A stretch of 10,402 bases of DNA from an uncultured Lutibacter sp. (GTDB taxonomy: Bacteria; Bacteroidota; Bacteroidia; Flavobacteriales; Flavobacteriaceae): NCBI GenBank assembly GCA_913061425.1, contig CAJXUO010000018.1:1-10402 (forward strand), given 5' to 3'. Under the pieces are notes generated by a model, which saw nothing but the letters and a program-made list of their open reading frames with translations, was not told the DNA's origin and made no database searches. How positions within the stretch are numbered: position 1 is the stretch's first letter; every line of letters begins with the position of its first letter. This document shows positions 7,529 through 10,402 of the stretch, in pieces. A program made the translations under genes and the position numbers.

Positions 7529-8647
7529 ATGAAATTTATAGTATCAAGTTCACAACTTTTAAAGCAATTACAGGTTCTTGGAGGTGTAATTAATAGCAAT
7601 AATACATTACCTATTTTAGATAATTTCTTATTTGAATTAGACACCAATGAATTAAAGATAACAGCATCTGATTTAGAAACAACAATGAGTTCTTCAATAG
7701 AAGTTGAGTCTGATTCACAAGGTTCAATTGCAGTTTCTGCACGTTTGTTATTAGATACTTTAAAAACATTTCCTAATCAACCGTTGACTTTTAAAACTGA
7801 AGACAACAGTACCATTGAAATCAGTTCTAGTCAAGGGAAGTATGATATGGCGTATTTTAATGGAGAAGAATTTCCTAAAACTGCGGCATTAAATGCACCT
7901 AGTACAACAGTGATTAATGGTGATATTTTAGCAACAGCAATTTCGAAGACTATTTTTGCAGCAGGAAACGATGATTTACGTCCAGTAATGAGTGGTGTTT
8001 TCTTCCAATTTAGTCCAGAAAATTTAACGTTTGTAGCAACTGATGCTCACAAGTTAGTAAAGTATACACGTACTGATGTAACTGCAGATGCAGTAGCAGA
8101 ATTCATTATGCCAAAGAAACCTTTGAACTTATTAAAAGGAATTTTAGGAGGTGCTGGAACAGATGTAACAATTGAATATAATGATTCTAATGCGAAGTTT
8201 ATTTTTGACAGTACCGTTTTAGAATGTCGTTTAATTGATGGAAAATATCCAAATTACGATGCCGTAATTCCAAAGGAAAATCCAAATAAATTAACGGTAG
8301 ATCGCGCAACATTCTTAAACTCTGCAAAAAGAGTTTCTATATTCTCAAGTAAAACTACACATCAAATTCGTTTAAAAATGGCTGGAACAGAGTTAAACAT
8401 ATCTGCAGAAGATATTGACTACTCTAACAAAGCAGATGAACGTTTAAACTGTGAGTATCAAGGTGATGATATGCAAATTGGATTTAACTCTCGTTTTTTA
8501 ACAGAAATGGTAAGCAATTTGGATTCTAATGAAATATTAATTGAAATGTCATTGCCAAACAGAGCAGGAATTATGACACCCATTGATGGAAATGAAGAAG
8601 GTGAAGAAATCACAATGTTGGTAATGCCAGTAATGCTAAATCAGTAA
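7529..8647 (+). CDS. dnaN: DNA polymerase III subunit beta (sliding clamp)
   Basis: 372 residues, the normal full length for the beta clamp. The protein shows the usual three repeated clamp domains (about 1-120, 125-245 and 246-372). Typical features are the N-terminal MKFIVSSSQLLKQLQVLGGVI, LPILDNFLFEL, the DLRPVMSGVFFQF and VATDAHKLVKY stretch of domain 2, LIDGKYPNYDAVIP at the domain 2/3 boundary, and the C-terminal MPVML (366-370), which corresponds to the MPMRL tail that forms part of the partner-binding pocket in E. coli. The clamp is a cytoplasmic ring that tethers DNA polymerase III and other repair and replication proteins to DNA. It has its own promoter and terminator and appears to be a single-gene unit. 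In many Flavobacteriaceae, as I recall, dnaN lies next to gldG; here about 7 kb separates the two. Confidence 0.97.
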   Translation: MKFIVSSSQLLKQLQVLGGVINSNNTLPILDNFLFELDTNELKITASDLETTMSSSIEVESDSQGSIAVSARLLLDTLKTFPNQPLTFKTEDNSTIEISSSQGKYDMAYFNGEEFPKTAALNAPSTTVINGDILATAISKTIFAAGNDDLRPVMSGVFFQFSPENLTFVATDAHKLVKYTRTDVTADAVAEFIMPKKPLNLLKGILGGAGTDVTIEYNDSNAKFIFDSTVLECRLIDGKYPNYDAVIPKENPNKLTVDRATFLNSAKRVSIFSSKTTHQIRLKMAGTELNISAEDIDYSNKADERLNCEYQGDDMQIGFNSRFLTEMVSNLDSNEILIEMSLPNRAGIMTPIDGNEEGEEITMLVMPVMLNQ

Positions 8648-8700: not shown

Positions 8701-8795
8701 AACTGATAAACAGAGGAATAAACATCCTTTTATCCCGAAATATAAACCCATAAAAGAGTACTTTAGTGCTTTTATAACCAGTTGTGTGCAAGCTG
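8701..8795. repeat. Imperfect palindrome and hairpins in front of the two-gene module
   Basis: AACTG-ATAAA (8701-8710) pairs with TTTAT-(AAC)-CAGTT (8771-8783) with a 3-base bulge, giving outer arms of an 83-base imperfect palindrome. Inside it, AGTAC (8756-8760) can pair with GTGCT (8766-8770) around TTTA. At its right edge CAGTTG (8779-8784) pairs with CAAGCTG (8789-8795). GTTGTGTGC (8781-8789) recurs inverted at 10176-10184. The stretch 8698-8811 holds no gene. Individually these are short pairings in AT-rich DNA; the combination with the downstream element makes them worth reporting. Confidence 0.4.
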
Positions 8796-8811
8796 AAAAA
8801 AAATAATCGGA

Positions 8812-9666
8812 ATGTCCAAAATTTACAATTACATTGACCAGAAAGGGATTCCATTTAAAAAGATAGCTAGCTTCTCAATTAGAATTGAGGAAGATGACAT
8901 TTTAAATAGACTGAACATTGAATCTGATGAAACTACAGATAAAATCATAAACAAAGGGGAATTAATTATTTCTACTCATAATGATCCCAACGTAAAAGCA
9001 CCCGATTTTCCGAATAAATTCAAACTAGATAAAAAAACTCAAGAAGAAATTGCTATTAATTGGCTAAAAGATACCACAGGTTATGTTGTGGATGAATTTA
9101 GAACGCTCTTCGAACTACCAGAATTAAACCAAAATCCATTTTTATTACAGATTGAGAGAGGAATTAGGAATTATTTTTTAATACTCGCAACGAAAATTAT
9201 TAATGGAGATATAATTGTCAGAGAAAAGTATCATAGTCATCATGGGTTTTTACAAGAAAATTTCATTAAAACATTTGGACAAATAGAAAAAATAAACGGA
9301 ACTATAGGTATTGATGGTAAAATGAATGACTTTGGGAATTTAACCGAAGTTGGTGGAGATTTGTGGTTTTCTAATCATGTTTATCAAGAAAATTTAGAAT
9401 CTATCAAACCATTAAAAATAGTTTACGGTGATTTAAATTTAAAAAATACACATGCGTCTTTAGAGTCTTTAGAAGAGGTTGGAGGTAATTTAAATTTAAG
9501 AAAGACCACATGTCATAACGTATCATCACTTAAAAGAGTTGGTGGTAATGTATTAGTATCCAAAAGTCAATTGGACAACTTTGACTTCTCTAAAGTAGAA
9601 ATCAATGGAAAAATTAAGACGTTTAATGACAAATTTAATCAAGGACAATTAACATCACCTCAATAA
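8812..9666 (+). CDS. Hypothetical protein with C-terminal leucine-rich-like repeats
   Basis: 284 residues, no signal peptide or membrane segment, so probably cytoplasmic. Residues 1-150 are a charged domain I do not recognise. From about 155 on there are five repeats of 19-24 residues with the core L-x-x-V-x-G-(D/N)-L: IEKINGTI (158), LTEVGGDL (177), LKIVYGDL (201), LEEVGGNL (220) and LKRVGGNV (240). Such stacked repeats predict a solenoid of the leucine-rich-repeat or receptor L-domain type, usually a binding surface. The ATG at 8812 follows an AT-rich stretch with no clear promoter. The next gene starts 31 bases after its stop, so the two are probably cotranscribed. The pair lies between hairpin elements and appears to be an accessory insertion after dnaN. 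The function is unknown; the repeats suggest protein recognition. Confidence 0.8.
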   Translation: MSKIYNYIDQKGIPFKKIASFSIRIEEDDILNRLNIESDETTDKIINKGELIISTHNDPNVKAPDFPNKFKLDKKTQEEIAINWLKDTTGYVVDEFRTLFELPELNQNPFLLQIERGIRNYFLILATKIINGDIIVREKYHSHHGFLQENFIKTFGQIEKINGTIGIDGKMNDFGNLTEVGGDLWFSNHVYQENLESIKPLKIVYGDLNLKNTHASLESLEEVGGNLNLRKTTCHNVSSLKRVGGNVLVSKSQLDNFDFSKVEINGKIKTFNDKFNQGQLTSPQ

Positions 9667-9697
9667 AAAATTTAATATAACTTAAGCTAGTATCTTC

Positions 9698-10195
9698 TTG
9701 AAAACATCTATTTACATTTTATTTATTCTGCTTATAATATTGTTTGTGATATTCCACAAAAGGAAATTAAGAAAAAAGAAAATTGTGGAATATAACAATT
9801 TGAATCGCTCTTTTGATGAGCTTAAATTTCAATTTGAGAAAGGTCTGACTATTGAAAGTCATAAGAAAGGAACTCGATATTTCGGACTTGAAAAAGTAAA
9901 AGAATGGAAATCTAAATTTGGGTATACCTTTAATATTTATGGAAATGACCATTTCATAGACAATAAACCTCATTTTCATTTTGACCATAAAGAGAAAGGT
10001 GTTTCCTGTAAAATGAGTTTTGAGGGAGAAATATTTGAAAGTAAAGGAAAAAACGAAATAGATAAGAAAGCACTTAAAGAATTAAGATATTTTTTATCGA
10101 TGGATAGAACACAAGAATTAATAGTTTCTAAATGGAATGAAAAAAATCCAAAACTGAAATATAAAATAAAAGCCAGCACACAACAACGTGTATAA
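9698..10195 (+). CDS. Membrane-anchored protein with DUF4160-like C-terminal half
   Basis: 165 residues. The frame has no ATG near its beginning; a stop lies at 9683-9685 and the first plausible start is the TTG at 9698. That start gives a sensible N-terminus, MKTSIYILFILLIILFVIFHK, which is one membrane segment (about 4-19) followed by a basic cluster, so the rest should face the cytoplasm. Residues 83-150 resemble DUF4160: KPHFHF (90-95) matches its PPHFHV, followed by KMSFEGEIFESKG and a helix ending ELIVSKWNEKN with W146. DUF4160 proteins are small, of unknown role, and usually lack a membrane anchor. The last residues (QQRV) and the stop codon are encoded by the edge of the downstream palindromic element. 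It is likely cotranscribed with the repeat protein upstream. The family call is from pattern recognition and is moderate. Confidence 0.7.
   Translation: MKTSIYILFILLIILFVIFHKRKLRKKKIVEYNNLNRSFDELKFQFEKGLTIESHKKGTRYFGLEKVKEWKSKFGYTFNIYGNDHFIDNKPHFHFDHKEKGVSCKMSFEGEIFESKGKNEIDKKALKELRYFLSMDRTQELIVSKWNEKNPKLKYKIKASTQQRV
10176..10184 (-). repeat. 9-base inverted repeat of 8781-8789 bracketing the module
   Basis: GCACACAAC here is the exact reverse complement of GTTGTGTGC at 8781-8789. The similarity continues weakly: going outward from each copy, away from the module, one meets TATAA after 4 (left) or 6 (right) bases. The right copy lies within the last codons of the preceding gene. Confidence 0.5.
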
Positions 10196-10306
10196 TTAAT
10201 TGCTAGTTAGTGTTTACTTGCGAAAGTCCTCCCTGACTTTCTATCTGTAATTTATTTGCTAAATTTAGTACTTAAACTACGCAACGAGATCATACACAAA
10301 CACGTT
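10185..10306. repeat. 122-base imperfect palindrome, cassette-end-like element
   Basis: The outer arms AACGTGT (10185-10191) and ACACGTT (10300-10306) are perfect. Going inward, TTGC (10200-10203) pairs with GCAA (10281-10284), TAGTT (10204-10208) with AACTA (10275-10279), and AGT (10209-10211) with ACT (10270-10272). At the tip GAAAGTC (10222-10228) pairs with GACTTTC (10235-10241) around CTCCCT. Unpaired bases lie mostly on one arm, so a folded single strand would have extrahelical bases, as integron attC sites do. The canonical attC cores RYYYAAC and GTTRRRY are not matched, and no U-tract makes it a terminator. I recall similar sequences between genes in other Flavobacteriia but cannot verify this here. 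The rest of the stretch to 10363 holds no recognisable gene. Confidence 0.65.
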
Positions 10307-10363
10307 AAAAAGAATGAATACAATAAAATTAGAAACTACAAATAATTTTATTTATTACTGAAT

Positions 10364-10402
10364 CTGTCTCTTATACACATCTCCGAGCCCACGAGACCTC
10401 TC
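10364..10402 (+). other. Residual Illumina Nextera adapter (i7/read 2 side)
   Basis: Positions 10364-10382 are the reverse-oriented Tn5 mosaic end (CTGTCTCTTATACACATCT), 10383-10397 the read 2 adapter (CCGAGCCCACGAGAC), and 10398-10402 (CTCTC) the first bases of an i7 index. This is library sequence; the biological sequence ends at 10363. Confidence 0.98.

Follow-up and report, generated by a model that had tools for sequence, protein, structure and literature searches.

We examined a 10,402-nucleotide stretch of DNA (hereafter the window) from contig CAJXUO010000018.1 of an uncultured Lutibacter sp. of the family Flavobacteriaceae, in which a long imperfect palindrome follows an accessory gene. 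Comparison with related genomes indicates that this element is very probably the attC equivalent of an integron-type gene-capture system of Bacteroidota. A sequence-only reading of the window had proposed an attC-like site from a separate, poorly described family of recombination elements in Bacteroidetes, and this proposal was supported by arrays of such sites, by complementarity between the two ends of the cassettes and by a tyrosine recombinase that is not IntI. In the following, G000 denotes the metagenome-assembled genome (MAG) containing the window, G006, G010, G013 and G027 denote genomes of relatives, and L-numbers denote individual loci.

A blastn search with the window element gave four places in its own MAG. 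Of the 60 genomes searched, its own among them, 29 had matches, and a single one of these 29 lies outside the family. Twenty 20-kb stretches from G027, G006, G013 and G010 contained 247 nhmmer matches, 232 of them full length; the other 15, which were partial or lay at a stretch end, were omitted, as were 7 of the 232 that were unanchored. The sequence-only reading had named a single occurrence as evidence against itself, and the element thus turned out to be far from unique. All full-length sites of an array point the same way and are mostly spaced 0.4-3 kb apart. The arrays of G006 and G027 amount to dozens of gene cassettes; those of G006, on a single contig of 3,426,122 bp, lie at about 164-241 kb and near 1.87-1.89 Mb, and those of G027 at about 2.22-2.26 Mb and 2.72-2.79 Mb.

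In integrons, a cassette starts with the bases that follow the crossover of the preceding site, and these have to be complementary to the R'' box at the other end of the same cassette. The flavobacterial arrays follow this logic: the first ~9 bases of a cassette complement the bases preceding its own site, like the R'/R'' boxes of integrons. At positions 4-9 after GTT, 88-91% of the bases match over 210 adjacent pairs, compared with 30-54% after shuffling, and perfect four-base complementarity was found in 179 of these 210 pairs versus 11 when shuffled. Because many of the G006 pairs are copies of one cassette (a 46-member cluster), a deduplicated test was made, in which 83 of 113 unique start/end combinations were complementary versus at most 14 in 1000 shuffles. 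An independent set collected around 19 other recombinases gave 81 complementary pairs out of 92 versus 8 in the control. The bases that flank a site covary with those at the opposite end of the cassette, usually at a distance of some hundred bases to 2 kb. The integron core-motif consensus, GTTRRRY and RYYYAAC, was not recovered: the former was present in 16 of 133 unique cassette starts and the latter in 6 of the 38 unique R'' 7-mers located. At one locus (L053; G010:C4:225-245 kb), four consecutive sites are each followed by GTTGAAGCACATTCAGCAAAGCTG, which was also found after the attI of L080; since this sequence at L053 does not match the usual complementarity between start and R'', a repeated insert or a cassette lacking an open reading frame (ORF) may sit there.

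The imperfect palindrome that had been described at 10185-10306 is present, with its best limits at 10182-10306 and an R'' box that reaches back to 10176. Folded as single-stranded DNA, the top strand of the window site has a z score of -1.17, with 30 of 200 shuffles doing as well, and the bottom strand one of -1.92, with 8 of 200 shuffles doing as well; its fold alone is thus only weakly beyond chance, and the significance had to be judged from its relatives. For 163 unique sites the mean minimum free energy was -18.2 kcal/mol for the bottom strand, -15.6 kcal/mol for the top strand and -7.5 kcal/mol for letter-shuffled controls (5 letter-shuffles per site); folding at the level of the family is therefore far beyond chance. 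The bottom strand is lower in energy at 156 of these 163 sites; a comparison of the two strands had been suggested by the sequence-only reading. With the cassette genes on the top strand, this favoured fold is not that of the mRNA.

In the window, the conserved register consists of AAC (10182-10184) paired with GTT (10304-10306), followed by an internal loop with 3 nt on one side and 6 nt on the other and by an arm formed by GTGTATAATTAATTGC (10188..10203) and GCAACGAGATCATACAC (10281..10297; 17 nt, the family norm being 16). The same structure characterizes the family, in which the 16-bp arm varies in sequence (GTGTAT, GTATAA, GGCTAT, GTATAT and others). The AACGTGT/ACACGTT stem of the sequence-only reading is an alternative, off-register pairing, and that reading had missed both the R'' box upstream to 10176 and its potential pairing with the cassette start at 8781-8789. 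Its observation of extra bases on one arm holds for the loop (6 versus 3 nt) and for the additional base in the 3' arm of the window, but the measured strand bias stems from A.C/G.T positions. Over 69 aligned sites (the window site and 68 of 72 dereplicated ones, the other four being omitted by hand), the outer stem is paired in 97.9% of cells versus 84.5% after shuffling, and compensatory changes on both sides were found in 142 cells versus 33, distributed over 12 of the 19 pairs. Mismatches in the arm, counted in 127 of the 163 unique sites after omitting 36 with fewer than 10 identical arm positions, comprise 296 bottom-strand G.T wobbles (A.C in the top strand), 2 top-strand wobbles and 100 others, and the wobbles cluster at arm positions 7 (111 sites) and 12 (103 sites). 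A longer form of the site, of ~187 nt, occurs beside the 125-nt form at several other platforms, namely L117 (3590-3776), L072, L098, L120, L142 and L145.

What lies between the sites was then characterized in 217 cassettes, which have a median length of 768 bp. Apart from 7 cassettes longer than 3.5 kb, all were tested for their longest ATG-started ORF of at least 60 aa (n=210): it lies on the strand of the site in 141 and on the opposite strand in 6, while 63 have none, compared with 60/56 in random nearby segments. The ORFs start at a median of 33 bp past the cassette start, and in 90 of 141 the stop codon is no more than 140 bp from the cassette end. A constant neighbour gene, which the sequence-only reading had also regarded as speaking against an attC-like site, was not observed, as 147 cassette ORFs fall into 121 families. 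Pfam searches with 108 representatives matched 63 families, and the 25 listed include ParE and Gp49 toxins, MutH, a GNAT acetyltransferase and ResIII-type helicases; an IS-type rve transposase is also among the Pfam matches, indicating that some arrays carry inserted elements. PADLOC matched 93 families, with HamB, PtuA and a type II restriction enzyme among the 25 listed.

Near-identical cassettes form 15 clusters that recur within or between arrays of one genome, and none of these clusters is common to two genomes in the four-genome cassette set. Among 604 near-identical pairs with known neighbours, a number dominated by one 46-member cluster, both neighbours differ in 380. Ten pairs with 97-100% identity from smaller clusters were inspected. 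On the right side of G|TT, identity is lost within 2-4 bp in every pair; on the left side, it is lost within 12 bp in nine pairs, and in the tenth the preceding site is identical too. The largest cluster is a cassette of ~430-450 bp with 46 near-identical copies in two G006 arrays (L045/L048) about 1.6 Mb apart, and this cassette may drive its own expansion.

At the heads of the arrays lies the gene of a tyrosine recombinase of ~375-400 aa, directly followed by attI and then by the cassettes, all in one orientation. Twenty such platforms were hand-picked among the upper entries of a profile search across the family, most of the entries that had been examined before or lay on short contigs being passed over. 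All 117 attC sites counted there lie downstream of the recombinase gene on the same strand, and none was found in ~9 kb upstream; three partial matches of the 120 covariance-model matches, all three likewise downstream, had been dropped before counting. Nineteen of the 20 platforms have at least one site, and at the remaining one the sequence continues for 202 bp downstream. Among 20 short loci of an earlier batch, 9 have a site; of the other 11, three have a site farther on and at least six end less than 400 bp past the gene. The R'' box of the first attC located an attI within ~240 bp of the gene end at 16 of 19 platforms, compared with 1 in a mismatched control. Two styles of attI were seen: one is typically ..ATATAACNAG|TT, and the other has ..G|TT behind a palindrome that is perfect or nearly so. 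The residues R, K, H, R, H and Y, which we take to be the catalytic residues of the enzyme, are invariant in 18 aligned rows, and Y is only nearly invariant in a 34-row alignment.

Having placed this recombinase at the head of the arrays, we compared it with known families. Against the IntI model TIGR02249 (cut-off 265), three array recombinases scored 208.7, 199.6 and 197.2 bits, and a true IntI scored 428.4. The spacing between two motifs is 63-66 residues in the array-type enzymes (42 of 54 rows measurable) versus 105-109 in IntI (3 of 6 rows measurable), and as judged from these alignments the array recombinase is without the ~40-residue insertion of IntI. According to a passage of PMC8138268, a survey of tyrosine recombinases, the integron-like subgroup has an insertion of its own that integron function requires, although it is not conserved throughout. 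A tree of 78 rows unites the six IntI in one clade with support of 100/100 and the flavobacterial XerC/D in another; a further clade, with support of 97/96, comprises 54 array-type enzymes and their relatives, not all of them individually checked for adjacent sites, plus four without the N-terminal domain described below. The best tree joins IntI and the array enzymes with support of only 62/15, so a common origin is neither shown nor rejected. The best NCBIfam model for the array recombinase is NF040815 (recomb_XerA_Arch; 223 bits, cut-off 220), and because this XerA-type model matched just above its cut-off, the G006 enzyme, which is identical to an NCBI protein assigned to Urechidicola croceus, bears the product name 'site-specific tyrosine recombinase/integron integrase'. 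The nearest solved structures by sequence are XerA (5hxy), a XerC-like protein (4a8e) and then IntI4 (2a3v).

The N-terminal domain alone gave 4o66 (SMARCAL1 HARP) and 2fwr (the N-terminal part of XPB) as the top-ranked Foldseek matches, at low sequence identity, and Pfam HARP (PF07443) matches it weakly; VIA-align found no decisive match for the domain and did not single out HARP. Taken together, there is moderate evidence that the modelled domain is HARP-like. By eye, a similar N-terminal region is present in recombinases at L194, L191, L202, L171 and L190, from Cytophagales, Bacteroidales, Chitinophagaceae and a Spirochaetota MAG; as such recombinases extend beyond Flavobacteriaceae, there may be further families of sites still to be detected. 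The window's MAG also has a true IntI gene (428 bits versus the TIGR02249 cut-off of 265), at G000:C258 2-949 (L084/L116). Because its sister in the tree is the IntI of a Thiotrichaceae MAG, C258 is probably a contaminant contig, and this IntI was therefore discounted.

We propose that the recombinase would bind the bottom strand folded as a hairpin, recognizing an R box of GTT plus ~7 cassette-specific bases, the 3/6-nt internal loop and the 16-bp arm with its nearly fixed G.T wobbles at positions 7 and 12. Strand exchange would occur at G|TT, with attI or another attC as the partner, and cassettes would be excised in circular form and reinserted one at a time, in the orientation in which they can be read from the platform. 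The HARP-like domain would probably help to recognize the loop or the junction, a task performed in IntI by its own insertion. At the window, the recombinase gene would have been lost except for its 3' end, with attI and at least one cassette persisting downstream of dnaN.

A question raised by these findings is whether the sites could instead belong to an ordinary IntI integron with unusual attC sequences, its conventional IntI lying elsewhere or having been present formerly. The general layout is indeed that of an integron, the window's MAG has the IntI gene on C258, the product name of the G006 enzyme includes 'integron integrase', and passages in PMC8618304, PMC9668308 and PMC2426708 record Bacteroidota or Bacteroidetes/Chlorobi as carriers of integrons or intI. 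However, the TIGR02249 cut-off is passed only in the window's MAG among the 60 genomes (own included), by a gene that pairs in the tree with the Thiotrichaceae one, and the NCBI name derives from the XerA model. The array enzymes themselves score 197-209 bits, lack the insertion and form their separate 97/96 clade, and GTTRRRY occurs in 16 of the 133 unique starts. We consider this explanation very unlikely.

Even less probable, in our view, is that the sites are passive palindromic repeats, like repetitive extragenic palindromes or miniature inverted-repeat transposable elements, which transposed and landed after genes. Such repeats would account for many dispersed, similar copies with inverted-repeat ends, but not for full-length sites in one orientation through whole arrays with a fixed G|TT junction, for the start/end complementarity, for an ORF polarity of 141:6, or for a duplicated unit that is the whole cassette instead of the repeat alone. 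We attach equally little credence to transcription terminators or RNA elements of 3' untranslated regions after accessory genes, which the sequence-only reading had itself raised. The sites do come after genes and fold, and a side-function as a terminator at the RNA level is possible; against this, the window has no match to an Rfam family above the gathering threshold, the strand that tends to fold better is the one opposite the gene (296:2 wobbles, 156/163 energies), and the site-flanking bases covary with the far cassette end.

With the site interpreted as an attC equivalent, the right part of the window can be read as an orphan platform, all features of which lie on the forward strand. The chromosomal neighbour, outside the cassette, is dnaN (7529..8647), encoding the DNA polymerase III beta clamp (Pfam PF00712/PF02767/PF02768). 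Behind it, 8707..8753 is the 3'-end remnant of an array-recombinase gene, with the frame ..LLSRNINP* and a stop codon at 8751-8753; the intact genes of G013 and G010 terminate in LLSGNINP and LLSGNMNP. Positions 8707-8784 align with the last recombinase codons and attI of G013 (L082) and G010 (L080) with local scores of 107 and 101, respectively, the maximum of 300 shuffles against L080 being 29. The attI-like site, ..TTTTATAACCAG|TT, occupies 8754..8783 with a putative crossover between 8781 and 8782, and its near-identical counterpart adjoins the recombinase stop codon in both G013 and G010.

The attI-like site is followed by a gene cassette of 1523 bp (8782..10304), whose last base is the G of the attC GTT. 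It is delimited by the complementarity of GTTGTGTGC (8781-8789) to the R'' box GCACACAAC (10176..10184), two segments that would pair in the modelled circular form; written as the cassette start, TTGTGTGC is complementary to its own R'' GCACACAA(C). The cassette contains an ORF of 284 aa (8812..9666; Recep_L at 19.7 bits, under the cut-off of 21.8) and another of 165 aa (9698..10195; DUF4160-like, 24.9 bits versus a cut-off of 23), whose stop codon lies within attC. The attC-like site (10182..10306), with its better fold on the bottom strand and its predicted crossover at G(10304)|TT, scores 107.5 bits with the covariance model R1, of whose 69 rows it is itself one. The post-crossover sequence TTAAAAAGAATG.. 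(10305..10364) has A at positions 9-10 and T at 11, which by eye is the pattern of the cassette-start consensus, and it is perhaps a second cassette truncated at the contig end. The remaining bases, CTGTCTCTTATACACATCTCCGAGCCCACGAGAC.. (10365-10402), recur at the 3' end of L113 (G000:C157) and the 5' end of L114 (G000:C25), and we take this sequence to be a Nextera transposase adapter left untrimmed in the assembly.

Behind dnaN, G013 carries the same remnant and attI with a different first cassette and further sites beyond. The first cassettes of the window and G013 have only the site in common (window 10142-10304), the remainder scoring 29, whereas shuffled sequences reach 35; the same platform thus differs in gene content between these two genomes, a kind of comparison that the sequence-only reading had pointed to. 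The dnaN-side remnant with attI was not found in G010, and no clean empty site behind dnaN was present among the ten related genomes examined for it. These comparisons suggest that the recombinase gene was probably lost at the window locus, or that its tail, attI and cassettes were relocated there. As only the 3' end of the recombinase gene is kept, this copy could move only if a recombinase were supplied in trans; contig C210 of the same MAG has a separate recombinase gene with an attI-like motif behind it.

Next, the distribution of the system was surveyed. The model R1 matches 174 of 199 genomes of the window's family, nearly all from different genera, and 73 of 247 genomes across the phylum; in one genus of the family (g146), only 5 of 14 genomes have matches. 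It matched none of ten genomes of other phyla, mostly G+C-rich ones as we presume, in a search that had no positive control and limits false positives only. The per-genome counts are lower bounds, scoring having been capped at 14-17 candidates in each genome. The recombinase (E < 1e-60) was detected in 125 of the 174 attC-bearing genomes versus 2 of the 25 without attC (Fisher p 8e-10); this threshold was chosen after seeing bimodal E-values, and 1e-90 gives 117/174 versus 2/25. No recombinase was detected in 49 of the 174 attC-bearing genomes. The site is also present on two Tenacibaculum finnmarkense plasmids (CP116298.1 and CP116296.1), so it is not restricted to chromosomes, and no phage record matched in the search with the site.

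Compared with IntI integrons (class 1-3 and the Vibrio superintegron), the flavobacterial system has the same plan of a recombinase, an attI and cassettes arranged head to tail, each of which carries a single attC and, as a rule, a single ORF of the same orientation. The cassette start complementary to R'', the G|TT junction, the predicted bottom-strand hairpin and the large chromosomal arrays of mostly function-unknown accessory genes, defence and toxin types among them, are likewise shared. It differs in its recombinase, which is not IntI, appears to lack the insertion and has an extra, probably HARP-like N-terminal domain, and in its sites, which do not have GTTRRRY/RYYYAAC cores and show an R box of about 9-10 bp followed by AAT/AAG, as well as a 16-bp arm with nearly fixed G.T wobbles instead of obvious extrahelical bases. 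Moreover, recombinase, attI and cassettes run in one direction here (19 platforms with sites), whereas the IntI integrase is usually, not obligatorily, divergent. The reverse integrons of Treponema, an accepted exception to this, also have integrase and cassettes read in the same direction, but are described in a passage of PMC7691350 as using IntI. Clusters of attC sites without an integrase, for which the term CALIN appears in a passage of PMC8618304, resemble the window and the 49 attC-bearing genomes where no recombinase was detected at hand, but the flavobacterial sites belong to a non-IntI system. XerA, XerC and XerD are close in the NF040815 match and in the solved structures 5hxy and 4a8e; Xer, however, mainly resolves chromosome dimers, as stated in part of PMC8138268, and the flavobacterial XerC/D clade is separate from the array enzymes. 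The SMARCAL1 HARP domain and the N-terminal part of XPB are alike in their top-ranked Foldseek matches (4o66, 2fwr) to the N-terminal domain alone, which here is fused to a tyrosine recombinase, not a helicase, and has low sequence identity to them.

The presence of integrons in the phylum is in itself no novelty, since integrons or intI genes had earlier been recorded in Bacteroidota, according to passages of PMC8618304, PMC9668308 and PMC2426708. In the text of IntegronFinder 2, Salinibacter is the only name among Bacteroidetes proper, and none of the 11 taxon-specific attC models of PMC8352920 is for Bacteroidota. No description of the flavobacterial system was found in titles and abstract starts of the open-licence PMC papers listed by literature searches; one may exist in a preprint, a subscription journal or a paper outside these listings. 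The system, which combines integron logic with a different recombinase and site code, is thus apparently undescribed.

On a broader view, it is quite possible, although we lean slightly against it, that Bacteroidota hold a second integron lineage. This lineage would have been assembled independently from a Xer-like recombinase and a HARP-type domain that reads DNA junctions, with convergent hairpin cassettes, attI and strand selectivity; it would be the main cassette-capture engine of the phylum, occurring in most genera of Flavobacteriaceae and overlooked since tools seek IntI and canonical attC. If the system is as we describe it, single-strand hairpin recombination can work without IntI, and a new recombinase would be available for DNA engineering. 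Many hypothetical flavobacterial genes would then be mobile cassettes, with defence and toxin-antitoxin types among the sampled ones, and a common family of marine and soil bacteria would hold large cassette libraries by means of a different enzyme.
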